NCBI RefSeq assembly: GCF_035610345.1
Contig: NZ_CP141213.1
Span: forward strand, 1,756,430 to 1,820,429
Source of the DNA: Sinorhizobium meliloti
GTDB taxonomy: Bacteria; Pseudomonadota; Alphaproteobacteria; Rhizobiales; Rhizobiaceae
Direction: 5' to 3'
DNA length: 64,000 nucleotides
In this document: positions 13,660 through 26,773 of the stretch, in pieces
How the letters are laid out: every line of letters starts with the position of its first letter
Position numbering within the stretch: position 1 is the stretch's first letter
Notes under the pieces: generated by a model
Database searches by the model: none
The model's input: the letters and a program-made list of their open reading frames with translations, nothing else
Told to the model about the DNA's origin: nothing
Made by a program: the position numbers and the translations under genes

Positions 13660-14805
13660 TCATGATGTCGAGACGGCTTCCGCGCCGAGAGTCTTGAGCT
13701 GCTCGATGGAGGCAATCCCCATCAATGCAAGGCTGATCGCAATCTCCCGCTCGAGGATGGCGATCACCTCGGCCACGCCCGCCTGCCCGGCGGCCGAGAG
13801 GCCATAGGTATAAGCTCGGCCAAGCATCACGCCGTCTGCGCCGAGTGCGATCGCCTTGATGACGTCCGCGCCCCGGAGGATGCCGCCGTCAAGCATAAGG
13901 CAGAAGTCGGTTCCCACGGCGGCGCGAATGCTCGGCAGGGCGCGGATCGTGCTCGGGGCACCGTCGAGTTGACGTCCGCCGTGGTTGGAAATCACCACCC
14001 CATCGCAACCGAGATCGCGAGCGCGCACGGCATCCGCGGGCGTGAGAACGCCTTTAATTACGAGCTTGCCCGTCCAGCGTTCGCGTAGCGAGGCGATGTC
14101 CCTCCACGACAGCGTCTTGTCAATTCGGCGCGAGAGATTGGCCGCCTGCTCAAGCGCGCCGCGACCGAATTCCGGCCGGTGCTCGATAGCCCTGACCGAC
14201 GGCATGCCGGCAAGGGCCACCTGTGCGAGCCAGCGCGGCTTCAGCGCGAGACGGGCGAAGAGATCCGGCGTCACCCGCGTCAACGATCGGAAGCCGTTTC
14301 GCACATCCCGTTCGCGAATGCCCGTAATGGCTGTGTCCACCGTTACGAACAGGGTATCGACGCCGGCCTGTTCTGCCGCTTGGAGCAATTCCTCGCATAG
14401 CGAGCGATCCTCCAGCACATAGAGCTGGAAATGCAGCGGCCCTTCCGTGACGGTGCGAAGGTCGGCTAGTGAAGCGATGGAAAAGGTTGAAAGGCAGAAG
14501 GGGATGCCCGCGGCATGCGCCGCCTGCACGGCCTTGACCTCGCCCTTGCCGGCATAAAGACCGAGGAAGCCGACCGGCCCGAGCATGAACGGCAGGGGAT
14601 GACGTTTCCCGAGATAAGCCGTGGAAAGGTCCTGCGGCTGCGGCTCGACTAGCACGTTCTGGCGCAGGGTTATGCGGGAGAAGTCCGAGCGATTCGCCCG
14701 CATCGTCTCCTCCTCGAAGGAGCCGCCGTCTATATAGTCGAAGAAGATCTTCGGCAGCCGCCGTCGGGCGAGATCGCGAAAGTCGTGGATGTTGACCAGC
14801 GCCAT
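13660..14805 (-). CDS. FMN-dependent alpha-hydroxyacid dehydrogenase (LldD/lactate oxidase type)
   Basis: Cytosolic or membrane-associated flavoenzyme oxidising a 2-hydroxyacid to the 2-oxoacid. The 381-residue length is normal. FDYIDGGSFEEETM at residue ~22 and MLGPVGFLGLYAGKG are FMN-binding blocks; LVIKGVLTPADAVRA carries the catalytic-site lysine strand; VISNHGGRQLDGAPS near residue 275 contains the catalytic His and substrate-binding Arg; GADGVMLGRAYTYGL is the phosphate-binding end. It is the last gene of the minus-strand catabolic operon, one nucleotide after the kinase stop, so its natural substrate is more likely a pathway hydroxyacid than lactate. Confidence 0.85.
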   Translation of the reverse strand: MALVNIHDFRDLARRRLPKIFFDYIDGGSFEEETMRANRSDFSRITLRQNVLVEPQPQDLSTAYLGKRHPLPFMLGPVGFLGLYAGKGEVKAVQAAHAAGIPFCLSTFSIASLADLRTVTEGPLHFQLYVLEDRSLCEELLQAAEQAGVDTLFVTVDTAITGIRERDVRNGFRSLTRVTPDLFARLALKPRWLAQVALAGMPSVRAIEHRPEFGRGALEQAANLSRRIDKTLSWRDIASLRERWTGKLVIKGVLTPADAVRARDLGCDGVVISNHGGRQLDGAPSTIRALPSIRAAVGTDFCLMLDGGILRGADVIKAIALGADGVMLGRAYTYGLSAAGQAGVAEVIAILEREIAISLALMGIASIEQLKTLGAEAVSTS

Positions 14806-14806
14806 G

Positions 14807-16099
14807 TCAGCCGTTGTCCGGATCGATTGTGTCGATGAATCTTGAAATTAAATCGTCTCCCGCAGCCGGCTCGCTTCCGGCCATCACCGCGACGGAGAAG
14901 CCTATCAGGGAGGAAATCGCGTTATGAGTCGTTGCGCCGGCCCGCAGGTTCATCACCAGCGTCGGGCAGAGGAAAAGGCCAAGCCGGATGACCCGACGCC
15001 AGTCGGCCGGAAGCATGCCCCGCGCCTTCAGTTCGTGGAGCAGTGGACGCCATACTGCCTCTGCCTTTACGTCGAGAAGCGCCCGCCTGGCGGGACTTGG
15101 CATGAAGTCGGTCGTGACGCGGAGCAGACTACCATCGAGCATTACGCTTGCCGTGTAGTGCTCAGCCGCCATGGCAGGATCGTAGAGCCACAGCGGATGA
15201 GCGAGGGTGTTATGAAAGGTCGTCTTCACTTCGGCGAGCAATGTCGGGATGTTCTCGCCGGCAAAGGCGGGATCGAAAAAAGACAAGCGTGCCCTGTCAT
15301 CGCGCTCCTCGTACCAGACATTCGCGTTGTGGGCATCGCCATGCGCGACCACTCCCCCGGCATCGGTCAGCCGCGAGGGGTTCAGCCGCTCATGCGCGGC
15401 ATCGAAGAGAGCACCGAGGCTGTCGCGGTATTCGATGCCGTTCACCACAAAACGGCAGTGCGAAAGCGTCTCCCAATCGATCGTCAGGTTTGGAAAGGTA
15501 AAGTCCTTGTCGACATAGAAGCTCGCCATTCGCCCGCCCGGATAGGTACCTGCCGAAGGGTCGATGAGCCGTTCGTAAAAAAGCCGGTGGATCGGCTCGG
15601 CCGCAACCTCCCCCGCATTCACCGGATGCAGCGTATCGAGATAGACCTGAAGCACGGCTTCGCTCAGCCTGCGTTCGGCCTCAACAGCCCTTTCCCTCGC
15701 GGCAGCATCGTCATTCAGATCCAGCGCTCGCAGCACATCGGAAAAGCGCGGATCAGTGCGTCGGCGATAGACGAGGATCTGTTCGCCCGGAAGAGTCGAT
15801 ATCAGCAATGGCTGATCTACGGGAAGTCCGGCGCGGGCCAGGATGTCGGCGCGGTAATATTCGCCGCTCATGGCCTCCTCGCCTTCTTCCTGATGGAACT
15901 TGAAAAAGAACGCGCCATCTTCGGTATCGAAGAATCCATTGAGGGAATTGAGGCTATACTGGTCGTGATTGATCGCGACGTTCTTTGCCTCGATCCCGAA
16001 AAGGTCGCGCAGCAGCTCGGCCAGCAACTGTTCCGCCACGCCGTCTCCGGTTTTGGCGATCTTCCTAATTTGTGCGGTGCGGCTCGTGGCCTGGCTCAT
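14807..16099 (-). CDS. Phosphotransferase of the APH/choline-kinase fold
   Basis: ATP-dependent small-molecule kinase, about 430 residues. The catalytic loop VAHGDAHNANVWYEE (near residue 280) and the metal-binding motif LSFFDPAFAGEN (near residue 298) match the APH family (HGDxxxxN and D-x-(A/F)). The ATP-lobe piece AFFFKFHQEEGEE is near residue 70. The ATG at 16099 gives a normal N-terminus; a longer frame to 16192 overlaps the upstream regulator. The immediate junction with the hydroxyacid oxidase gene suggests a catabolic kinase acting on a hydroxylated or amino substrate, not antibiotic resistance. The substrate is unknown. Confidence 0.75.
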   Translation of the reverse strand: MSQATSRTAQIRKIAKTGDGVAEQLLAELLRDLFGIEAKNVAINHDQYSLNSLNGFFDTEDGAFFFKFHQEEGEEAMSGEYYRADILARAGLPVDQPLLISTLPGEQILVYRRRTDPRFSDVLRALDLNDDAAARERAVEAERRLSEAVLQVYLDTLHPVNAGEVAAEPIHRLFYERLIDPSAGTYPGGRMASFYVDKDFTFPNLTIDWETLSHCRFVVNGIEYRDSLGALFDAAHERLNPSRLTDAGGVVAHGDAHNANVWYEERDDRARLSFFDPAFAGENIPTLLAEVKTTFHNTLAHPLWLYDPAMAAEHYTASVMLDGSLLRVTTDFMPSPARRALLDVKAEAVWRPLLHELKARGMLPADWRRVIRLGLFLCPTLVMNLRAGATTHNAISSLIGFSVAVMAGSEPAAGDDLISRFIDTIDPDNG

Positions 16100-16139
16100 A
16101 GCGTTCTTTCCGAATGGGTCTTTTGGATAGGAACGGCGG

Positions 16140-16871
16140 TCACTTGCCGCCGTGCAGATAGCGGCTGCCGAGCGAATAACGGCTGCCGACATAGGTGAAG
16201 GTATTCACAGTTGCGACGACCGGTCCTGTCCAGGTCTTGCGGTGCAGGACCAGGCAGCAGTCACCCGGGCGAATGTTCAGCAGACGAGCCTGGTCAGCAC
16301 TGGCCGGCAGAGCGCTGATGAGGTGCTCCACCTCGGTCAGCGGGGTTGCGTTCTGCAGGTAGTCATAAGTGGCGACTGCGGCAAAGTCCTGGTCGACATA
16401 GCCGGAAACGAGGGTGGGATTGACATAGCGCTCCTCGAGCTGGACCGGCAGGTCGTTTTCGAAATGAATGACTACGGAATGGTCGACGGGCTTCACCGCC
16501 TCAAACTCGAAGGCGATCAGAAGCTCTGGTTCCGGTCGTGCAATGCGCTCGAGCACGAACACCTCGGCGCGGTGCCGGCTACCGCGCGCTCTGATCTCGG
16601 CGATGATGTTGCTGATTTCGATCAACGTCGACTGGGGCCGCGGCGGAGCGACAAAGGTGCCGACGCCCTGAATGCGGCGCAGATGCCCCTCCGAAGTGAG
16701 CTCCCGCAGCGCCCGGTGAACGGTCATACGGGACACGCCGAGTGCCATAACGAGTTCGTTCTCGGACGGAAGCCGGCTGTTGCGCGCCCACTTGCCGCTG
16801 CCGATGTTGCCAAGGACGAAGTCCTTCACCTTGGCGTAGAGCGGCGATGCAGAATCTGAAAGCGTATTCAT
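16140..16871 (-). CDS. GntR-family regulator, HutC subfamily
   Basis: Ligand-responsive repressor. The winged HTH is at residues ~8-75 (LPSENELVMALGVSRMTVHR then GHLRRIQGVGTFV) and a UTRA effector domain follows to residue 243, the normal HutC length. HutC itself senses urocanate, but HutC-like proteins respond to many ligands. Location inside the catabolic operon, between alcohol dehydrogenase and kinase, makes it the likely local regulator. Candidate operators are the shared TGTCTATACATAT sites at 23506 and 24534. Confidence 0.85.
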   Translation of the reverse strand: MNTLSDSASPLYAKVKDFVLGNIGSGKWARNSRLPSENELVMALGVSRMTVHRALRELTSEGHLRRIQGVGTFVAPPRPQSTLIEISNIIAEIRARGSRHRAEVFVLERIARPEPELLIAFEFEAVKPVDHSVVIHFENDLPVQLEERYVNPTLVSGYVDQDFAAVATYDYLQNATPLTEVEHLISALPASADQARLLNIRPGDCCLVLHRKTWTGPVVATVNTFTYVGSRYSLGSRYLHGGK

Positions 16872-16934
16872 GGTTCACTGCCTCCACCGCCGCCTTAAAT
16901 GAGCCGGCACCCGGAATGACATGACGGACCGGAC

Positions 16935-17948
16935 TTAGCCCGCCACCTCGATGATCGTCTTAAGCGCCTTGCTGTCGCCCCTCAGCAGCCTTTCGTATGC
17001 CTCGGGCACATCGTCGAGCGCCGGCAGCACCTCGATGAAACGTTGCAGCGCGGGTGCGAGATCGACGAGTAACCCAACGCTCTCGGGCAACTCGTCTGCA
17101 AAGGCATGGCAGCCGACGAGTGACATCTCCCGCTCCACTAGGATGTTCGGGTCGAAATCGAGCCTGCCGTGGCCAATGCCGACGAGCGCCAGCGCTCCGC
17201 CGGCCGACAGGATGTCGAGAGCCCGTGCGATCGCCTGAATGCTGCCGGTGGCATCCAGCGCATAGCGCACCCTTCCGCCGGAAAGTGCTTTTTCGATCAC
17301 CGCCCTGTCGAGAGCAACGACCGCGCCGCCAGTCACCTCGGCGACAAGAGCGGCTTTGTCGGCGTTCAGATCGGCCAGCAGCAGCGGACCAGCGTGCAAC
17401 CGGGAGAGAAGAAGGGCGCTCAACCCGCCGATCGTGCCGCAGCCGATGACGAGAACCGGTTCGCCGGCCGGAATGGCGAGGCGACGCACGGCATGCAAGG
17501 CGACCGCCATCGGTTCGGCCATAGCGGCAACATGGGGCGAAAGCTCAGGATCGTGGCGCACGACCAGTCGGGCTGGCAATTGCACCGCCTCGGCAAAACC
17601 ACCGTCACAGATCTCGCCGACGAAACCCAAGGCCTCGCAGACATTTTTGCGGCCGCTCGTGCAAGCCGGGCAGGTGCCGCACCACATGCGCGAGTCCGCA
17701 GAGACGACGTCTCCCCGCATCACGTGGCTGACGCCCTCTCCGATAGCAGTCACGCGACCGCAAAATTCATGGCCTGCCGTCGAGGGCCGGCGCGAGATCC
17801 ATTGGCCGGTACGGTAGTTGTGAAGGTCGGAACCGCAGATGCCGGCAGCCCTTACTTCAAGGTTGACGAAGCCTGGCGGCGGAGCCGACAGTTCGGCGAC
17901 CTCCTCCACCCGCAAGTCCTTGGCGTCGTAGAGCCGCACAGCCTTCAT
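16935..17948 (-). CDS. Zinc-binding alcohol dehydrogenase (MDR family)
   Basis: NAD(P)-dependent polyol/alcohol dehydrogenase related to threonine, sorbitol and galactitol dehydrogenases; 337 residues. GICGSDLHNY and AGHEFCGRV supply catalytic-zinc Cys and His; the structural-zinc lobe C-x2-C-x2-C-x7-C is intact near residues 91-105 (CGTCPACTSGRKNVC); the Rossmann motif VLVIGCGTIGG is at about residue 168. It sits 3 bp after the HisD-like gene, so the two are co-transcribed and probably act on related alcohols. Confidence 0.84.
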   Translation of the reverse strand: MKAVRLYDAKDLRVEEVAELSAPPPGFVNLEVRAAGICGSDLHNYRTGQWISRRPSTAGHEFCGRVTAIGEGVSHVMRGDVVSADSRMWCGTCPACTSGRKNVCEALGFVGEICDGGFAEAVQLPARLVVRHDPELSPHVAAMAEPMAVALHAVRRLAIPAGEPVLVIGCGTIGGLSALLLSRLHAGPLLLADLNADKAALVAEVTGGAVVALDRAVIEKALSGGRVRYALDATGSIQAIARALDILSAGGALALVGIGHGRLDFDPNILVEREMSLVGCHAFADELPESVGLLVDLAPALQRFIEVLPALDDVPEAYERLLRGDSKALKTIIEVAG

Positions 17949-17951
17949 GGT

Positions 17952-19280
17952 TCAGGCGCCCTGCTTCAGATAGCGATCGCGCACCGGCGATACGGCAAGC
18001 GCATGCGAGGAGAAACCCTCGTAGATCGCCAGATTGTGGGAATGCTTGGCGAATTCCGGATAGGCCGGTGCCGTGACATAGCCGATTGAGCTGCGCTTGA
18101 CGAAATCACTGACCGACAGCGGGCCGAACGTTCGGGCCCAGCGGCTGGTCGGCAATACGGCGTTCGGCCCAAGCGAAAAGTTGGCGATGCTGACCGGAGT
18201 ATGGGGACCCATCAGGATTTCGGACGCTTCAGTGATGTGGCCGAGATGAATGAAGGGCTCTTCCGAGAGAAGCTCCAGATGCTCCGGCGCATAGGCGTTT
18301 ACGAACTCGTAGCTTTCCTCGATGGACGACGTGAGAACGATGCCGCCGGTCTTTCCGCTCAGCACGGCCGTTGAGAAGGCGACGCGCTGTTCGGTCATCT
18401 TCGCCCAGTGTTCTGGAAGGGCTGCGAGCGCCTCCTCGGCGACGCGGCGGCTGTGGGTAACGAGATAGGCAGAGGAATCCGGGCCATGTTCCGCCTCGAT
18501 CAGCAGGTCGAGCGCGGCAAGACCACCATGGACCGTATCATCGGCGAGGATCATCACTTCGGACGGACCGGCAGGAAGACCGGTATCGATGACGCCGGAG
18601 AGCAAGCGCTTGGCGGCGACCACCCACGGGCTGCCGGGACCGACGATCTTCAGCGCCGGCTTGATGGTTTCGGTGCCATAGGCGACGGCAGCAACGGCCT
18701 GCGCGCCGCCCACCTTGTAGACGGTTTCGACACCGGCGAGGCGTGCGGCAACCAGCGTCGCAGCATCGACCGAACCGTCCGGTGCCGGCGGCGTGACGAT
18801 GGCCAGATTGGAGACGCCCGCAACAACGGCCGGGACCGATGTCATCATAGTCACCGACGGGAAGGAACCTTTGCCGCGCGGCACGTAGAGCGCGACCGAC
18901 TGAATGGGCGTAAAGCGGTCTCCGGCAAATGCGCCGGGACGGATCTCCTTCAGCCACATGGCTTCAGGCTTCTGCTCCTCATGGAATTTGCGGATGTTGT
19001 CTATGCCGAATTGAACGGATTCGATCACGCTTGCATCAACCAGCTTGAAGGCCGCATCGAACTCGGCCGCGGTAACCTTCAGATTGGCTTCCGTGACATC
19101 GGCCTTGTCGAGTTCGCGGCCAAATCGTGCAAGCGCCTTGTCACCCTCGGTGCGGACGGCTTCCAGGATCGGCGCGACCTTCTCGATGAAGGTCGATATG
19201 TCGGTTTCCGAACGGCGCAGCAGGGCGGCCTTTTCTTCGAGGTTCAGCTTGGAATATTCGTAGAAAGAGACGTTGGTCAT
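17952..19280 (-). CDS. hisD: HisD-family NAD-dependent amino/alkanol dehydrogenase (not clearly histidinol)
   Basis: HisD-fold enzymes oxidise a terminal alcohol to a carboxylate in two NAD-dependent steps; 442 residues, normal length. The catalytic pair Glu-His is kept (YAPEHLEL near residue 330) and so is the C-terminal zinc-ligand His (GFSSHALAV near 422). However, the usual Q-A-E-H zinc ligand block reads EAEHGPDS, the GDY aspartate ligand block reads ANF, and the GPNH histidine reads GPNA. Biosynthetic HisD keeps these, so I infer a paralogue with another substrate; sulfopropanediol dehydrogenase HpsN is one known catabolic relative. Flanked by transporter and alcohol dehydrogenase genes, which also argues for catabolism. 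Confidence 0.82.
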   Translation of the reverse strand: MTNVSFYEYSKLNLEEKAALLRRSETDISTFIEKVAPILEAVRTEGDKALARFGRELDKADVTEANLKVTAAEFDAAFKLVDASVIESVQFGIDNIRKFHEEQKPEAMWLKEIRPGAFAGDRFTPIQSVALYVPRGKGSFPSVTMMTSVPAVVAGVSNLAIVTPPAPDGSVDAATLVAARLAGVETVYKVGGAQAVAAVAYGTETIKPALKIVGPGSPWVVAAKRLLSGVIDTGLPAGPSEVMILADDTVHGGLAALDLLIEAEHGPDSSAYLVTHSRRVAEEALAALPEHWAKMTEQRVAFSTAVLSGKTGGIVLTSSIEESYEFVNAYAPEHLELLSEEPFIHLGHITEASEILMGPHTPVSIANFSLGPNAVLPTSRWARTFGPLSVSDFVKRSSIGYVTAPAYPEFAKHSHNLAIYEGFSSHALAVSPVRDRYLKQGA

Positions 19281-19319
19281 CGTCTTGTCCTTGTAGCTAG
19301 CCCTCGCAGGGCCGAAGGG

Positions 19320-20120
19320 TCATTTCGATTTCAGGAAGATGTCGAGACCGACCAGGCGGTCGAGCAGCGCGATCGCAACACCCGCGCAGGCGATGAACAC
19401 CACGGAGATGGCGGCCAGGTCGGGCGTGATGATCGAGCGGATGGAGTTGTAGATCTGCACCGGCAGCGTCACGCTTCGAGCGTCGACCAGCAGGAGGCTA
19501 ACCAGAAACTCGTTGAGCGCGAGGATGAACATCAGCAGCGATCCCGTAATCACGCCCGGCAAGACCGCCGGCAGCGTGATGTAGAGGAAGCGTTGCAGCG
19601 GCGGCGCTCCGCAATTGGCCGCAGCCAGTTCCAGGTCGGGCGACAGATTACTGGCACTGGCCGTCACAGCCCAGACCATGAACGGCAGGTTAATGACGGC
19701 GCAGGCGATACCCACCGGCCACAACCGCCCGAGAACGCCTATATTGCCGAGGACCAGCATCATGCCAATGCCGGAACCAATCAGCGGGATGGTGAACGGC
19801 AACAGCAGATAGATCTGGATCGATCGAGCAAACCGGACCCGATATTTGGCCAACGCGATGCCGGCGAGCGTGCCGACCGGGATCGAGACCACGGTGCATA
19901 TCGTGGCGACGATCAGCGAACGCAGGAAGGCCTGCCTGAGGTCACTTGCCTGGGCGATCGCCCCGTACCATTTCAGCGATAGGCCGTCCGGCGGAAAGGT
20001 AATGATGTTTCCGGCCGTAAACGAGGCTCCGAGCACCACGACAGTGGGCGCAGACAACATCACAAGCGCAGTCGCAACGAAAGCCCATAGAACGAAGGAT
20101 TTACTTTTGCTGCCCGTCAT
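19320..20120 (-). CDS. ABC transporter permease, PotC type
   Basis: Inner-membrane subunit of a spermidine/putrescine-type importer; 266 residues with about six membrane segments. The EAA loop is recognisable as AAANCGAPPLQRFLYITLPA near residue 165, the contact site for the ATPase. It overlaps the preceding permease by 4 bp (ATGA). Confidence 0.87.
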   Translation of the reverse strand: MTGSKSKSFVLWAFVATALVMLSAPTVVVLGASFTAGNIITFPPDGLSLKWYGAIAQASDLRQAFLRSLIVATICTVVSIPVGTLAGIALAKYRVRFARSIQIYLLLPFTIPLIGSGIGMMLVLGNIGVLGRLWPVGIACAVINLPFMVWAVTASASNLSPDLELAAANCGAPPLQRFLYITLPAVLPGVITGSLLMFILALNEFLVSLLLVDARSVTLPVQIYNSIRSIITPDLAAISVVFIACAGVAIALLDRLVGLDIFLKSK

Positions 20121-21061
20121 TTACGGCCTCCTGTCATGGCGAGCGTGCCTGCGCCGAATACCATGAACACGACGCCGACGAGCATGGACCCGACCGCAAC
20201 GAGCATCATTGACAGCGTAGCACCCATGCCCTGGTCGGAGGTGCGGAAGAACTGGTCGTAGATCGCGTTGGCGATAAAGTCCTGCGTGCCGCCGCCGAGT
20301 ATTGCGGGGATAGCGAAGTCGGTGAGCGACAGTGTCATCACGACTAGGCCGGCCCCCACGAGCCCCGGTCGGGAAAGCGGCAGAACGATGTGGCGAAAAG
20401 TGCGGGTCCAGCCCGCGCCGAGCGAGGCCGCTGCCGCCTCGAGGTCGCTGGGGATCGCGGTCAGAGCCGGTGCGAGCATCAGCACCGCGAAAGGCAGCAT
20501 GTACTGTATGAGGCCGAACAGTACCGCAGGGTAGTTGTAGAGCAGCCGTATGGGCGGGACGCCTACGAGACCGAGCGCCTCGTTGACCATGCCCTGATTG
20601 CCGAGAATGATGAGCCAGCCATAGGCGCGCACAACCTGTCCGATGAAGAAGGGCAAAAACAACGCAACCAGCAGAAACTTGCGAAGCGTGGACGAGGGCG
20701 TGCGGACCATGAGATAAGCATATGGAAACGCGAACACCAGCGTGATCACGGTCACGATCATCGAGCCGATCAGGCTACGGCCTGCCACGGTCGCAAAGAA
20801 GCTCTCGGTCAGAACACGCTGATAATTGGCGAGCGTATAGCTCTCCGACATCAGGAAGGTATTGGTATCGAGCGTTCTCAGGCTCGTGTCGCCAATCTGG
20901 ACGAGGCCGAGCACAAGCAGCCCCACGAGCACAATCGCGGGCATCAGCATGAGATAAGGTAAGCCTCGCTGGAAGCTCGAGGGCCAGACGAAAGCCGCAA
21001 GGCGTTCGAGCATATCCATGACGCGCCACGTCAGGGGATATGCGGCACGGGAAGCGCGCAT
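20117..21061 (-). CDS. ABC transporter permease, PotB type
   Basis: Partner permease, 314 residues, with six main membrane segments and an EAA loop AAAASLGAGWTRTFRHIVLP near residue 230. An internal ATG at 21019 is an alternative start; I kept 21061 because a weak AGGA precedes it. With the PotC-type gene it forms the heterodimeric channel of the importer. Confidence 0.86.
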   Translation of the reverse strand: MRASRAAYPLTWRVMDMLERLAAFVWPSSFQRGLPYLMLMPAIVLVGLLVLGLVQIGDTSLRTLDTNTFLMSESYTLANYQRVLTESFFATVAGRSLIGSMIVTVITLVFAFPYAYLMVRTPSSTLRKFLLVALFLPFFIGQVVRAYGWLIILGNQGMVNEALGLVGVPPIRLLYNYPAVLFGLIQYMLPFAVLMLAPALTAIPSDLEAAAASLGAGWTRTFRHIVLPLSRPGLVGAGLVVMTLSLTDFAIPAILGGGTQDFIANAIYDQFFRTSDQGMGATLSMMLVAVGSMLVGVVFMVFGAGTLAMTGGRK

Positions 21062-21129
21062 GGCATCGATCCTGTTTCACGAGAGAATGTTGCCCGCCGT
21101 GAGAAGGGACGCGGCGGGCACACAAGGCA

Positions 21130-22245
21130 TCAGCCCTGCATGATTTCCTTGAACTTGGCGAACCACTGGCTCTCGTTCTCGACCTGTACCTTGGACGAGA
21201 TACGGATCAGGTGTTTGAAGTCCTCTTCCGTGGTCGGGTAGGACGGATCGCCCACCAGATCGGCCGGCGGCGTGATGCCGGGGATGACGCCGGGAAGGCC
21301 GAGACCGTCGAGCCAGATCTGCTGTGCTTCCTTGGTCAGGGCGTGATCGATGTACTTCTTGGCCCAGTAAAGCTCATTTTCGGGCAGACCTTTCGGGATC
21401 CATAGGCCGTCGGTGTCGAACTTTGCGCCTTCCTCCGGCACGACCCAGGCGATCTCGATCCCGTTCTTCTTGGCTTCGCGCGCATTGGTCGAGATGGTGC
21501 AGGCGGCGTCGATCTCGCCCTTCTGGAACCAGGTGGTAAAATCCGGGTCCTCGCCGAGCAGCGGCTGCTGCTCCTTGATCTTCGAGATGAAATCCCAGGC
21601 CGGCTGCATGTTGGCGGGAATGTCCTCGAGCTTACCGCCGCCGGCGACCTGGGCGGGGAAGTGGAAGCCGATGCCGTCGTTATACAGCGCGATACGACCC
21701 TTGAGCTTGGGGTCGAGCAGATCCTTCCACGACTTTGGTGCGCCGTTCGGGAAGGCCGACGGGCGATAGGCGAGCACGTAAACATAGCCGTAGGTATTGA
21801 CGATCGGATAACCGTCGAGACCGACCGGCTTGGCAAGATCCGTGGCGTTCTTGAGATTCGGCAGGTCCGACAGGTCCTCGGTAACCCCGCGCAGCGCCGA
21901 CTTTGTCGCGTTCGTGGTCGTATCCCAGTTGATGTGGATCGGCGGGACACGCTTCTGGGCAACAGCGGCCCAGACCTTCGGCTGGATCTCGTTGTCCTCG
22001 GTCAGGTCGTGGCGGACGGCAATCCCGGTCATCTTGGTAAAGCTGTCGGAGACGCCCGCCTTGAGCGCATCGACCCAGCTGCCGCCCCAGGCGCGAACGA
22101 TGATCTCGGCCGGCTTTTCCGGCTCTTGGGCAAAGGCGCGACTGGCGCCGAGCGCAGAGAGGCCCGCCGAGGCGCCGGCCGCGGCGATCGACGCAAGCAG
22201 CGTCCGGCGGCGGATCTGCGCGGACAGGAACTTTTCATGGGGCAT
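21130..22245 (-). CDS. ABC transporter periplasmic binding protein, Tat-exported
   Basis: Substrate-binding component of the PotD/family-1 class, 371 residues. The N-terminus has a twin-arginine signal (IRRRTLLASIAAAGASAG) with a likely AFA-Q cleavage near residue 40, so it is probably exported folded by Tat. Mature blocks EIIVRAWGGSWVDALKAG and VVPEEGAKFDTDGLWIPKG are typical of PotD-like proteins that bind amines or small organic ligands. GAGGAGA precedes the ATG at 9 bp. Confidence 0.86.
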   Translation of the reverse strand: MPHEKFLSAQIRRRTLLASIAAAGASAGLSALGASRAFAQEPEKPAEIIVRAWGGSWVDALKAGVSDSFTKMTGIAVRHDLTEDNEIQPKVWAAVAQKRVPPIHINWDTTTNATKSALRGVTEDLSDLPNLKNATDLAKPVGLDGYPIVNTYGYVYVLAYRPSAFPNGAPKSWKDLLDPKLKGRIALYNDGIGFHFPAQVAGGGKLEDIPANMQPAWDFISKIKEQQPLLGEDPDFTTWFQKGEIDAACTISTNAREAKKNGIEIAWVVPEEGAKFDTDGLWIPKGLPENELYWAKKYIDHALTKEAQQIWLDGLGLPGVIPGITPPADLVGDPSYPTTEEDFKHLIRISSKVQVENESQWFAKFKEIMQG

Positions 22246-22278
22246 TAGACATTCTCCTCTGGCTGGACCTTCTCGGGG

Positions 22279-23412
22279 TCATTTTTGAAAGACATGCATA
22301 TCCCTGGCATTCCAGCCGAGACGAACCTCGTCGCCCGGACCGAACTGCAAGTGAGATTCTGGATCGTGGTCGAAAACCCGCATCAGCACGCCGGCCAGCC
22401 TCGGAACCTGAATTTCGTAAACGACGCGCTCGCCTTCGAAAATGCAATCGACGACCTGGCCGTCGACCACCGTTTCGAGTCGCTCGAGTGGCCTGTCCTT
22501 CGGTGCGATGCGGATCTGTTCCGCACGAACCGCGCCGCTGCAGGATATGCCGGTCGCGAGGGCAGCATCGGCAGGGATCCCGACGAGACGCACACCGTTG
22601 GCTTCGAACACGGCTCGCGCTGAAGTAAGTTCGACAACGTTGCCTTCAATGAAATTGGTCACGCCGATGAAGTTTGCGACGAAAGCATTCGACGGCGCGC
22701 GATACGCATCGACCGGCCGGGCCTTTTGCTGAATGGAACCACCATTCATGACGATGACCTCGTCGGAAACCACCAGCGCCTCTCGCTGGTCGTGAGTGAC
22801 ATTGATCGTGGTGACGCCGAGCTCTTTTTGGATGCGGCGGAACTCGAGCTGCATCTCCTCGCGCAGCTTGCGATCGAGCGCAGCAAGCGGTTCGTCAAGC
22901 AGAAGCAGGTCCGGCTCGAACACCAACGCACGGGCGATAGCGACACGCTGCTGCTGACCGCCGGACAACTCATTGATCCGCCGGCTGCCATAGCCGCCGA
23001 GGCGCACGAGATCGAGATAGCGCGCGACCTTTTCCGGGATCGTGCGGGCGTCATGGCGTCGCATCTTGAGCGGAAAGGCGACGTTTTCGGCCGCGGTCAT
23101 ATGAGGAAAAAGCGCGAGCTTTTGGAACACCATGCCGATGGCGCGCTTGTGCGCCGGCACGGCACTGACCGGCCGCCCATTGATGAAGATCTCACCGTGG
23201 GTCGGCCGGTCGAAACCGGCGATCATGCGCAGCAGTGTCGTCTTACCGGATCCGGACGGGCCGAGAATGGTCAGGAACCGCCCCTTCGGGAGGTCGAATG
23301 AGGCATTCCTGACAGCGTGAACATCGCCGAAAGCCATGCCGACGTCCTTGACGGAAACAGCGACCGGATTGACGGATCCGGTCGGACGGAGACCAACAGC
23401 AACAACGCCCAT
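22279..23412 (-). CDS. ABC transporter ATPase, PotA type
   Basis: Cytosolic ATPase, 377 residues. Walker A GPSGSGKTTLLRMIAG near residue 55, signature LSGGQQQRVAIARAL near 150, Walker B LLLLDEPLAALD near 170, switch His in NVTHDQREA. The C-terminal ~110 residues form the TOBE regulatory domain. First gene of the long minus-strand operon; AGGGGAA lies 5 bp before the ATG. The operon promoter and a TGTCTATACATAT site lie about 100 bp upstream. Confidence 0.88.
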   Translation of the reverse strand: MGVVAVGLRPTGSVNPVAVSVKDVGMAFGDVHAVRNASFDLPKGRFLTILGPSGSGKTTLLRMIAGFDRPTHGEIFINGRPVSAVPAHKRAIGMVFQKLALFPHMTAAENVAFPLKMRRHDARTIPEKVARYLDLVRLGGYGSRRINELSGGQQQRVAIARALVFEPDLLLLDEPLAALDRKLREEMQLEFRRIQKELGVTTINVTHDQREALVVSDEVIVMNGGSIQQKARPVDAYRAPSNAFVANFIGVTNFIEGNVVELTSARAVFEANGVRLVGIPADAALATGISCSGAVRAEQIRIAPKDRPLERLETVVDGQVVDCIFEGERVVYEIQVPRLAGVLMRVFDHDPESHLQFGPGDEVRLGWNARDMHVFQK

Positions 23413-23715
23413 TAAATTCCCCTGTCTTGCTCCGACCGATGAAGCCGCGGCGAAGCTATTCTATTGGCCCGGCGGGAAGGCACTCGACGAGCCTTTACGT
23501 CTAGTTGTCTATACATATTAGTACAAGTATCGTCAACCGGCATTGCGCATTTTTTGCACTGCAATTCTACATGCCAACTATTTGTGCAGATGCGAAAGGA
23601 AGGCGCAAAGCCGCTGACAGTTTGGCTAGCGACGGACAGAATGACAAGCAGTCAAGACGGGTCCGTCGCACGGTTTGCACCCCACACGGAGCATTCATGC
23701 AGGCTCGCGCACGGA
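23413..23715. promoter_or_regulatory. Promoter region of the catabolic operon
   Basis: About 300 bp between the convergent SDR end and the ABC ATPase start. It carries the operator-like sequence at 23505-23526. No gene seen. Confidence 0.5.
23505..23526. promoter_or_regulatory. Candidate GntR/HutC operator
   Basis: TTGTCTATACATATTAGTACAA has TTGT/ACAA ends, giving a loose dyad, and contains the 13-mer TGTCTATACATAT (23506-23518) also found at 24534. Both copies sit in promoters of the catabolic block; GntR sites are typically short AT-rich dyads of this kind. Binding is inferred. Confidence 0.5.
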
Positions 23716-24483
23716 TCAGATGGAGGCGAGATAGCCGCCGTCGACAGGAATACAATGCCCCGTTATATAGGCAGCCGCATCGCTGCAGAGGAAAACCGCG
23801 ACACCGCCGATGTCGCTTTCCTTGCCGAAGCGCCGCTGAGGGATTTTTTCCAGCATGCGGGATTGCCAATCCTCGTCCTCGTAGAAGCCCTCAGTCATGG
23901 CGGTGCGGAAATAGCCGGGCGCTATGGCGTTGACCCGGATGTTGTGCGTTGCCCACTCGGTTGCCAGGGCACGCGTTACGCCGAGTAGGCCGGACTTGGA
24001 GGCGCCATACGGTACCGCCGTCGGAATGCCGACATAGGATGTCAGGGAGCAGAGATTGACAATCGCTCCGCCGTTTGCGTCCGCCATGATCCGGCCCGCC
24101 GCCTGGGCACAGAAGAAGGCGCCCTTCAGATTGGTCGAGACGATCGCTTCCCAGAGCGCTTCGTCTACATCGAAGGAAGGCCGGACATTCTCGAACCCGG
24201 CATTGTTGACCAGGATGTCGAGACCGCCCAAACTTTCAGCCGCTGCTCTCGTGACGCTTGAGCAAGCCTCAACGTCGCGTACGTCCTGGGCAAGCGCCAC
24301 GGCGCGTCTGCCGGCCTTTTCGATCAGTGCCCGGGTCTCAGCCAAGCCCTCTACCGTTCGCGCGGTCACCGCCACGTGCGCACCGGCCTCGGCCAGGGCG
24401 AAAGCGATAGACTGCCCTATGCCGCGGCTTGCTCCCGTAACGAGGGCGCGGCGGCCGGAAAGGTCGAAGATCGGGCGGGTCAT
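23716..24483 (-). CDS. SDR-family oxidoreductase
   Basis: Short-chain NAD(P)-dependent dehydrogenase, 255 residues. TGASRGIGQSIAFAL near residue 15 binds the cofactor; NNAGFENVRP near 90; catalytic YGASKSG with the Ser upstream in NLCSLTSYVG near 145; IRVNAIAPGYFRT near 185. The frame extends to 24534 but ATG 24483 follows AGGAG and leaves the operator-like sequence outside the gene. Convergent in sense with the ABC operon but upstream of its promoter, so it is a separate unit divergent from the HisC-like gene. Likely oxidises a hydroxyl of the pathway substrate. Confidence 0.85.
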   Translation of the reverse strand: MTRPIFDLSGRRALVTGASRGIGQSIAFALAEAGAHVAVTARTVEGLAETRALIEKAGRRAVALAQDVRDVEACSSVTRAAAESLGGLDILVNNAGFENVRPSFDVDEALWEAIVSTNLKGAFFCAQAAGRIMADANGGAIVNLCSLTSYVGIPTAVPYGASKSGLLGVTRALATEWATHNIRVNAIAPGYFRTAMTEGFYEDEDWQSRMLEKIPQRRFGKESDIGGVAVFLCSDAAAYITGHCIPVDGGYLASI

Positions 24484-24533
24484 TACGGCTCCTGTCCTGT
24501 TCCAACCTGGATGACACCACGATCTCGACAACA

Positions 24534-24546
24534 TGTCTATACATAT
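24534..24546. promoter_or_regulatory. Candidate GntR/HutC operator, second copy
   Basis: TGTCTATACATAT, identical to 23506-23518, lies between the divergent SDR and HisC-like starts, followed by ATACAGA. The shared motif links the two transcription units to one regulator. Confidence 0.5.
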
Positions 24547-24610
24547 ATACAGATCATGAATCCCGGCTTATGAATAGCACATAGCAAGAGTACCTCATGG
24601 AGACGGTAAA

Positions 24611-25723
24611 ATGGCAAACCCATCAACCCCCATACGGAAAGAAATTCGCTCGATCGCCCCCTATAATGCCGGCCTGACGCTCGAGGAGGTGCGGGCGAAG
24701 TACCATGTCGACGAAGTCGCCAAGCTCGGCTCCAACGAGAACCCTCTCGGCCCCTCGCCCGCCTTGCGCGGGCTTTTTCCCGACATCGGCGAACTAGCCC
24801 GGCTCTATCCCGATCCGCAAGGCCGCGCGCTCTGCGCCCGCCTGGCTGCCAGCTTCGATGTCGAGAACAATCAGGTTATCCTTGGCAACGGCTCGGAAGA
24901 TCTGATCGCCGTCATTTGCCGCTCGGTGGTGCGCGCGGGCGACACGGTGGTGACGCTCTATCCATCCTTCCCCCTGCATGAAGACTATACGACCCTGATG
25001 GGCGGAAAAGTCGATCGCGTCACCGTTGCACCGGACCTCTTCGTCGACATGGACGCCGTTCTCGCCGCAATTGCCCGCAAGCCGCGCATGCTGATGTTCT
25101 CGAACCCGATGAACCCGGTCGGCTCATGGCTGACACCGCTCCAACTGGAAAAGGTTATCGCCGCGCTCGATCCGGAAACGCTCATCGTGGTGGACGAGGC
25201 CTATGCGGAATATGCAGCCGGCGACGACTATCCAAGTGCGGCCGACATGCTGAAGGTGACGGGCTTGAACTGGGTCGTGCTACGTACCTTCTCGAAAGCC
25301 TACGGACTTGCAGGCCTGCGCATCGGCTATGGTATTGTCAGCGACGGCAGCCTTTGCGATTTTTTCAATCGTGCGCGCACTCCGTTCAACACCAATGCGA
25401 TCGCCCAGGTATCCGCCCTCACCGCCTTCGATGATACCGATCACCTTAACCGTTCCGTCGAGCTTGCTCTGGTCGAACGCGAACGGATGAAGACAGAGCT
25501 CGCGACGATGGGCTACCGAATTGCACCATCGAAGTGCAATTTTCTGTTCTTCGACGCACGCACAGATGCAACCCGGATGGCCGAAGCACTGCTCCGGCAA
25601 GGCGTCATCATCAAACCCTGGAAACAACCCGGCTTCGAGACGTATATTCGCGTCAGCATCGGCTCGCCTGCGGAAAACGATCACTTCATCGACGCGTTGA
25701 AGAAGGCTGAGGCCGCCGGGTAA
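24611..25723 (+). CDS. hisC: HisC-family PLP aminotransferase
   Basis: Fold-type I class II aminotransferase, 370 residues, like histidinol-phosphate aminotransferase. N-terminal IAPYNAGLTLEEV, LGSNENPLGPSP, PLP-binding Lys in TFSKAYGLAGLRIGYG near residue 227, and C-terminal RVSIGSPAEN are all present. The usual NPNNPTG motif reads NPMNPVG. Located divergently from a catabolic SDR and sharing its operator motif, it is probably a catabolic paralogue that transaminates a pathway amine or aromatic/imidazole compound, not the biosynthetic enzyme. Confidence 0.82.
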   Translation: MANPSTPIRKEIRSIAPYNAGLTLEEVRAKYHVDEVAKLGSNENPLGPSPALRGLFPDIGELARLYPDPQGRALCARLAASFDVENNQVILGNGSEDLIAVICRSVVRAGDTVVTLYPSFPLHEDYTTLMGGKVDRVTVAPDLFVDMDAVLAAIARKPRMLMFSNPMNPVGSWLTPLQLEKVIAALDPETLIVVDEAYAEYAAGDDYPSAADMLKVTGLNWVVLRTFSKAYGLAGLRIGYGIVSDGSLCDFFNRARTPFNTNAIAQVSALTAFDDTDHLNRSVELALVERERMKTELATMGYRIAPSKCNFLFFDARTDATRMAEALLRQGVIIKPWKQPGFETYIRVSIGSPAENDHFIDALKKAEAAG

Positions 25724-26188: not shown

Positions 26189-26773
26189 ATGGATGTCATT
26201 TTCACACCGGAGTTGACAGTTTGCGGGATTGAGGAACTGCCGGGCCAGAGCACACGCAACGTCTCCCATGTCCTGTCGTTGATCGATCCCGAATATCCCG
26301 AGATGGACGCCTTCCAGACCTACGGCAAACACCACCGCACCACGCTACGCTTCCACGACATCATTGCGGAGGCGCCTGGGCGGGTGATGCCCCATCCGGA
26401 CCATGTGGCAGAGATCCTCCGCTTCGGAACGGATTTTCAGTCAAGGCAGGATGCAAATGGCTCAAGCCATCTGCTCGTCCATTGCCATATGGGCGTGTCG
26501 CGCTCGACGGCCGCCATGCTGTCACTGATGGCGCAGGCGAACCCAGATGAGTCTGCCGAGGACCTGTTTGCCCGTTTGATCGTGATCCGGCCGCAAGCAT
26601 GGCCGAATTCGCAGATGATCCGTTTCGCCGACGAGCAACTTGGACGCAAAGGCGACCTGACAGCAGCGCTCGGCCGCCATTATGGCCGGCAAATCAAAAG
26701 CCGACCGCAGTTCACCGAGTGGATGACAACACTGGGTCGACAGGCCGAGTTGCAAATGGCGGTTCTGAACTGA
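26189..26773 (+). CDS. Tyrosine phosphatase-family protein
   Basis: Cys-based phosphatase of the dual-specificity type, 194 residues. The P-loop HCHMGVSRSTAAML near residue 98 carries the C-x5-R signature; the upstream HDIIAEAPG block supplies the likely general acid Asp. The family in rhizobia is conserved but of unknown substrate. No ribosome-binding site stands out; ATG 26189 gives the usual short N-terminus. It stands alone between the catabolic block and IS debris. Confidence 0.8.
   Translation: MDVIFTPELTVCGIEELPGQSTRNVSHVLSLIDPEYPEMDAFQTYGKHHRTTLRFHDIIAEAPGRVMPHPDHVAEILRFGTDFQSRQDANGSSHLLVHCHMGVSRSTAAMLSLMAQANPDESAEDLFARLIVIRPQAWPNSQMIRFADEQLGRKGDLTAALGRHYGRQIKSRPQFTEWMTTLGRQAELQMAVLN

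Follow-up and report, generated by a model that had tools for sequence, protein, structure and literature searches.

The described systems closest to the locus reported here are the pathway for sulfopropanediol (DHPS), in which the DHPS-2-oxidoreductases HpsO and HpsP have a racemase role, and the HutC regulon for histidine utilization (hut). The former is encoded by hpsRNOUPsuyAB in Cupriavidus pinatubonensis and relies on HpsN, a HisD-family enzyme that takes an alcohol to an acid in a four-electron oxidation; HpsN carries the motif GRY(A/S)H, which includes the sulfonate-contacting His, and has the zinc ligands Gln, His, Asp and His (PMC11382572). In MtHDH, Glu455* hydrogen-bonds the imidazole (PMC5585171). 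The genes named for the HutC regulon are those for the hut enzymes, HutD, transporters and the histidine biosynthesis operon in two species (PMC5343134). Here, we analyzed an eleven-gene block at positions 13660 to 25723 of a 64,000-nucleotide stretch of Sinorhizobium meliloti DNA (NCBI RefSeq assembly GCF_035610345.1, contig NZ_CP141213.1, positions 1,756,430 to 1,820,429), which is called the window throughout. All eleven genes claimed by a first-pass annotation of this DNA were recovered at the coordinates given below and with the families it had named, based on the open reading frames (ORFs) of the window and profile searches. We conclude that the block is a conserved unit tied to histidine utilization, and on balance we consider it probable that it encodes a HutC-controlled peripheral route feeding hut, in which an imidazole-bearing C3 alcohol is converted via imidazole-lactate and imidazole-pyruvate to histidine.

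We infer the substrate, step order, inducer and kinase role of this route as follows. The importer would take up the imidazole-bearing C3 alcohol, most likely 3-(imidazol-4-yl)propane-1,2-diol or the corresponding ketone, imidazole acetol. A short-chain dehydrogenase/reductase (SDR; 23716..24534, minus strand, start probably at about 24483; PF13561, 226 bits) and a zinc alcohol dehydrogenase resembling threonine and idonate dehydrogenases (16935..17948, minus strand; PF08240/PF00107) may interconvert the C2 isomers via the ketone, by analogy with HpsO and HpsP acting on DHPS. HisDL, an alcohol dehydrogenase of the HisD fold with swapped zinc-ligand residues (17952..19280, minus strand; PF00815, 450 bits; TIGR00069, 419 bits against a cut-off of 243.8), would oxidize the primary alcohol to imidazole-lactate in a four-electron step. 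HAOX, a flavin mononucleotide-dependent alpha-hydroxyacid oxidase/dehydrogenase (13660..14805, minus strand; PF01070, 425 bits; PRK11197, 374 against 376), is the proposed imidazole-lactate oxidase yielding imidazole-pyruvate, which a HisC-type aminotransferase encoded divergently (24611..25723, plus strand; NF003496, 640.7 against 540; TIGR01141, 295 against 276.55) would turn into histidine for degradation by the hut enzymes. A kinase of the aminoglycoside phosphotransferase (APH) fold may phosphorylate an alcohol intermediate, and urocanate or a related compound would relieve HutC repression. The 2-hydroxy-acid intermediate is suggested by HAOX and, on two Klebsiella plasmids, by a second alpha-hydroxyacid oxidase and a hydroxypyruvate-reductase-like enzyme; with hut downstream, the chain from imidazolyl-propanediol to histidine is the simplest. 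The first-pass annotation had suggested that one catabolic block combines oxidation of an alcohol to an acid with transamination, and the route proposed here bears this out as a reading.

To place the block among other genomes, we collected kinase-anchored loci, namely, the best 80 of 117 relatives found by a word scan with the kinase in a one-genome-per-species collection. These loci are not independent of one another, the contigs of some end early, and one (L075) stands under an odd organism name; 57 have full flanks, and gene-content counts out of 57 refer to these. HisDL was found in 78 of the 80 loci, and in the full-flank loci HisDL was present in 56, the SDR in 56, the zinc dehydrogenase in 51, HAOX in 23 and HisC in 25. 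Even in distant lineages such as Acidocella (L070), HAOX and HisC accompany the block; in L070, HisC lies within the operon. Of 387 genomes sampled evenly across the class, 11 carried the kinase, and all 11 had HisDL at most about 10 kb away by coordinates; a sample of 40 relatives yielded 3 with the kinase, the window's own genome among them. The block is therefore not a chance grouping, since its synteny recurs in many genomes: the gene set, for which the first-pass annotation had proposed a search elsewhere, is conserved across the kinase loci to the extent of these counts.

The kinase is also encoded on plasmids. Among 72,556 plasmid records, 106 matched it, 105 of them over at least 80% of the kinase, and the kinase-positive plasmids comprised 52 from Sinorhizobium, 35 from Rhizobium, 9 from Klebsiella and a remainder from others. 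In both Klebsiella plasmid records examined (L147 and L148), genes for a HAOX-like enzyme, an ABC importer, a HisD-like protein, the kinase, a zinc dehydrogenase and an SDR form a compact group; the alpha-hydroxyacid oxidase of these plasmids is a different one (38% identity to HAOX) and is accompanied by the hydroxypyruvate-reductase-like enzyme. These copies support the view that the block is a transferable unit. Insertion sequence elements and an arsenic-resistance operon lie near the cassette in L147, and an N-formylglutamate amidohydrolase gene lies near that in L148; in a further locus, L145, the genes look broken.

The block is tied to histidine utilization, a link that the first-pass annotation had missed in the HutC-type regulator, the operators and the hut neighbors. 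Genes of the hut pathway lie at most about 10 kb from the block in 20 of the 80 kinase loci (L004, L010, L011, L012, L015, L019, L035, L039, L045, L050, L060, L065, L069, L070, L072, L073, L075, L076, L078 and L079), where roughly 1% per locus would be expected by chance; only hutI/hutF are near the block in L039 and only hutF in L076. For this count, hutF, hutI and hutU were identified by NCBIfam cut-offs in L012 and hutH in L070, other loci were assigned by similarity to these, flanks were extended, and location on the same contig was verified by length and sequence overlap. Possible hut neighbors on other contigs (L095 and L102 to L105) and a hutH-like match at 33% in L059 were excluded. 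In an order-wide sample of 199 genomes, which is less biased than the kinase loci, the kinase occurred in 14 genomes and hutU in 103, with hutU in 14/14 kinase-positive and 89/185 other genomes (Fisher test, 6e-5, without kinship correction). We retrieved the regions of 10 of these 14, the others being the window's own genome and three (G265, G285 and G252) in which kinase and hutU are on different contigs. Genes of hut touch the block in seven of the ten (L117 to L121, L123 and L124), four of them from one genus, and do not in L122, L125 and L126; in L123, hutH and hutI are at the block while hutU is on another contig. In three of these regions (L117, L118 and L120), just one HutC gene was found in the 20 kb, and it lies between hutF and the HAOX gene of the block. 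The physical junction of hut and block is seen in several families, and the genomes of the kinase loci themselves encode hutU in 70 of 71 searched, 69 above the cut-off. As separate observations, one genome in which the kinase was not found has a HisD-like gene some 2 kb away from hutU (L128:4900-10000), and many kinase-locus genomes (for example, G041, G042 and G044) have a second urocanate-hydratase-like gene of about 675 to 700 bits, far away or on another contig, which is possibly of the thiourocanate hydratase type.

HisDL was compared with solved HisD and HpsN, and the spacing was verified on MtHDH and HpsN residues (PMC5585171, PMC11382572). The catalytic residues E333 and H334 are present in 78/78 HisDL orthologues. 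The zinc positions are Glu, His, Asn and His in all 78, so that both zinc His are kept while Gln is changed to Glu (E262) and Asp to Asn (N367) relative to HisD; the three PDB sequences of solved HisD and the usual HisD of the window's own genome (L107) have Gln and Asp at these positions. Numbered by what we take to be the E. coli HisD scheme, the position of His367 is Ala in 76 orthologues and Cys in 2. The residue equivalent to MtHDH Glu455* is Glu in 78/78. At the HpsN motif, HisDL reads GKGSFPS in 52 and GKGAFPS in 26, the HpsN-defining His being Phe in every case, and among solved chains HisDL matches HpsN with a lower score (184.6 bits) than HisD (269.5 bits). The Glu/Asn pair persists in further relatives with as little as 48% identity, and an unrooted tree splits 39 sequences of the HisDL kind from five HisD/HpsN-like sequences with a support of 1.0. 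Judged by these residues, HisDL is neither a canonical HisD nor an HpsN. The net charge of the metal site is kept and its location shifted, which suggests a second ligand or donor pattern different from that of L-histidinol.

This bears on the main rival explanation, which we regard as unlikely: that the nutrient is L-histidinol itself and HisDL a histidinol dehydrogenase dedicated to catabolism, with histidine as its direct product, the SDR, the zinc dehydrogenase, the kinase, HAOX and the HisC-type enzyme serving isomers or side products. HisDL does score above the TIGR00069 cut-off, and histidine as the product would fit both the hut linkage and the HutC-type operators. Its zinc-ligand positions, however, are unlike those of biosynthetic HisD in 78/78 orthologues, and a HisD of the usual type is also encoded in the genome. 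Five more enzymes would moreover be superfluous, yet the SDR (56/57) and the zinc dehydrogenase (51/57) are almost as constant as HisDL.

Two further HisD-family genes are of note. The window's own genome has a third member (L108:6463-7905, contig C1, at about 1994.5 to 1995.9 kb) with the motif GRYPL and Asp-Lys, which is HpsN-like without the HpsN His; its neighbors, identified by eye, are a TRAP transporter, a helix-turn-helix/cupin regulator and a Pot-type importer, whose Pot genes were found by tblastn. L127:2983-14100 contains a HisD-like gene (59%) with a Pot-type importer and enzymes of the DAO family and the thiamine diphosphate-dependent (ThDP) kind, without the kinase, and is a possible sister pathway lacking it. 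As guides to the window, such distant HisD-like contexts, including L132 with a gene beside those for phosphoglucomutase and glucose-6-phosphate isomerase, were uninformative.

The regulator gene (16140..16871, minus strand) encodes a GntR/UTRA protein that exceeds the curated HutC cut-off (TIGR02018, 258.5 against 220 bits). Three GTCTATAC-type cores occur in the whole window, and they fit what we take to be the operator consensus of the HutC subfamily. One, at 23507, belongs to a predicted HutC operator 5' of the PotA gene (23504..23516), a position conserved in other loci, and another, at 24535, to a predicted operator between the SDR and the divergent HisC gene (24532..24546). Across the 80 loci, 98 of 122 GTMTAKAC cores fall in the upstream zones of block genes, which make up 71 kb of 1.54 Mb, and 54 loci have at least one operator. 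The same core is found near the start of hutI/hutF in 17 of 18 linked loci with a readable promoter (the exception being L012), in three unlinked hut stretches (L102, L103 and L105) and 5' of hutI in the window's genome. Predicted HutC-type operators thus lie in front of the hut operon as well as of both transcription units of the block. The pSymA copy of the block in S. meliloti 1021 (L146, record 209023-221079) is complete and syntenic and has both operators.

Published expression data are available for that copy. In an array of a tolC mutant of S. meliloti 1021, seven block genes were down 8- to 23-fold alongside hutU (-10.3), hutG (-11.5) and hutH (-7.7), the individual values being -11.4 for hisC3 (SMa0387), -15.6 for SMa0391, -8.3/-23.5 for SMa0392, -10.5 for SMa0394, -10.1 for SMa0396, -10.6 for hisD2 (SMa0398) and -8.4 for the GntR gene SMa0402; the authors labeled the block transporter as being of unknown function (PMC2912261). 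We equated the SMa numbers with the genes of L146 via gene order, replicon and annotation. In addition, SMa0392 reporters are repressed by the small RNAs AbcR1/2 (PMC8844928), and hisD2 serves as a strain marker (PMC12824645). The block units appear to be co-regulated, as the first-pass annotation had expected, given the shared operators before both units and the published co-expression of the seven genes.

An improbable explanation of the same data is that the regulator is a paralogue of HutC co-opted for a nitrogen compound other than an imidazole, such as an amino alcohol or a polyamine relative, and that the ties to hut reflect common nitrogen control. In its favor, the window's own genome encodes three HutC-level regulators, two of them beyond the block (G000:C1:2735334 and C2:570590), and the L127 HisDL relative lies beside Pot genes with DAO-family and ThDP enzymes in place of hut. 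The tolC paper also ties the drop in genes for the transport of nitrogen compounds to low NtrC (PMC2912261). The importer, too, is of the Pot type, comprising permeases like PotC (19320..20120; its cluster has an ORF in 44 loci) and PotB (20117..21061; four-base overlap with PotC), an SBP_bac_8 periplasmic binding protein (21130..22245) and a PotA-like ATPase (22279..23412; TIGR01187, 354.1 bits, just below the cut-off of 355.6), all on the minus strand and assigned to the PotABCD family by profile matches. Of the polyamine-type importer in the first-pass annotation, the Pot-family parts stand, whereas the polyamine substrate is not supported: the binding protein reaches only 24.6 bits to PRK09501 (cut-off 582) and 34 bits to solved PotD, and in 17 of 57 loci one of two other kinds takes the place of the Pot-type importer (Pot type, 38; the other kinds, 10 and 7; none recognized, 2). 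Exactly one of the three kinds is present in 55 of the 57 and two in none, and one replacement is SsuA-like (TIGR01728, 143 bits, below the cut-off of 163.5). Aligned binding-protein orthologues (n = 33) are 70 to 97% identical to that of the window, with a mean column identity of 81%. A polyamine substrate is therefore not indicated by these sequences. Against a non-imidazole compound more generally, hut operons are physically joined to the block in several families, the same operator core precedes block and hut, and a single HutC gene lies between hut and block in L117, L118 and L120.

The kinase (14807..16099, minus strand) is read as an ORF extending to 16192, but it probably starts near 16099. 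This start gives 430 amino acids, most of the 120 homologues listed having 423 to 448, and residues 1 to 33 of the structural model from the 16192 start have predicted local distance difference test values below 50; with this start, the kinase gene does not overlap the HutC gene. No Pfam match was obtained at E<=0.001, and weak APH matches at E<=1 were found in 26 of 47 aligned orthologues. The predicted structure nevertheless has the APH fold, and the HGDxHxxN loop is present. A profile search of solved structures returned two chance-like matches only (E 0.47 and 0.53), and identity to the APH-fold enzymes PsiK and methylthioribose kinase is about 8 to 10%. The block kinase represents an undescribed APH-fold family that is scarcely recognized by Pfam.

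A step for this kinase would be provided by a salvage route in which it makes imidazole-acetol phosphate from imidazole acetol, the HisC-type enzyme histidinol phosphate, and a phosphatase and HisD histidine; the HisC-type enzyme does score above the HisC cut-offs. We consider such salvage very improbable, as no HisB or HisN homologue is among the assigned block genes, the active site of HisDL deviates from that of HisD, and the associated genes are for degradation. We reject a DHPS-type pathway with HisDL as HpsN and the SDR and zinc dehydrogenase as HpsO/HpsP, despite a similar trio of two DHPS-2-oxidoreductases and a HisD-family enzyme (PMC11382572): the HpsN-defining His is Phe in all 78 orthologues, within GKG(S/A)F in place of GRY(A/S)H, for which reason the HpsN/sulfonate lead of the first-pass annotation is not supported either, the HpsN score is the lower one, no SuyAB gene is among the assigned block genes (the rest of the genome was not searched), and the hut linkage would be left unexplained.

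Several observations weigh against the imidazole-alcohol route that we favor. Imidazolyl-propanediol is not known to us to serve as a nutrient, and no report of such use was among the matches listed in open-licence PMC papers. In the window's own genome, hutU is about 630 kb from the block on the same contig. The imidazole-contact Glu is shared with an HpsN-like paralogue (L085) and is thus weak evidence for an imidazole. The kinase cannot yet be placed securely in the pathway; eight more genomes of the class sample carry HisDL (E<=1e-120) without it (8 of 19 HisDL genomes), and it occurs without the block nearby in L040 and L122, two contexts that were uninformative as clues to the substrate. 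Where HAOX or HisC is absent, as the low counts above imply for many loci, the steps in question must be either carried out by other enzymes or dispensable. A recognized HutC gene was found in only 43 of the 80 loci; in 26 loci, including all eight from Ancylobacter, the tested zones contained no such operator, and neither Klebsiella stretch yielded a match to the HutC, HisC or hut queries or an operator next to the gene set. Finally, the co-expression of block and hut may reflect nitrogen control rather than HutC: since the authors of the array study suggest low NtrC as the cause for the genes of nitrogen-compound transport, the array documents co-expression and not HutC control (PMC2912261).

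The remaining features of the region concern its layout. With the long kinase and long SDR starts, adjacent genes in the stretch from HAOX to PotA are no more than 68 bases apart; 303 bases separate PotA from the SDR, and 76 the SDR from the divergent HisC gene. A small dual-specificity-phosphatase-like ORF (window 26189-26773; DSPc match below the cut-off) adjoins the HisC gene. An Rfam search of window positions 10 to 30 kb gave no match, and the 17 kb around the hut operon of the window's own genome showed no gene resembling HutC.

The wider claim, that this is a new pathway for an unrecognized imidazole-alcohol nutrient across the Alphaproteobacteria and Klebsiella plasmids, with a new HisD subfamily marked by its Glu/Asn zinc site and an equally new family of APH-fold kinases whose substrate is an imidazole alcohol or a similar small aromatic one, is made tentatively, as its chances fall a little short of even. 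If true, a soil and plant nutrient that nobody looks for is widely consumed. The analysis offers a testable role for the orphan hisC3-hisD2 cluster on pSymA of the model symbiont S. meliloti 1021. Among plasmid genes annotated as "histidinol dehydrogenase", some probably have no biosynthetic function, and HisDL would be a second catabolic departure of the HisD fold besides HpsN, identifiable from two residues.

Set against known systems, the block resembles the HutC regulon in having the same HutC-type repressor and operators, and it is joined to hut in many genomes. The word "histidinol" does not occur in the portion of the HutC-regulon text consulted, and the set of HisDL, SDR and kinase genes is an addition to that regulon (PMC5343134). 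Nor is a pathway with this exact gene set described there or among the matches listed in open-licence PMC papers, in line with the first-pass annotation, which knew of none. With biosynthetic HisD, HisDL has in common the fold family, the catalytic Glu and His, two of the four zinc ligands and the imidazole-contact Glu, and it differs in having Glu for Gln and Asn for Asp at the zinc ligands, in the replacement of His by Ala or Cys and in forming a separate clade. The block and the HpsN pathway of C. pinatubonensis both pair a HisD-family enzyme, which in HisDL would likewise perform a four-electron alcohol-to-acid oxidation, with dedicated uptake and, by analogy, with two alcohol dehydrogenases at C2 (PMC11382572). 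Unlike that pathway, the block lacks the HpsN motif and its His, has swapped zinc positions and shows no SuyAB, and it has instead a kinase, HAOX, a HisC-type aminotransferase and a HutC-type regulator.

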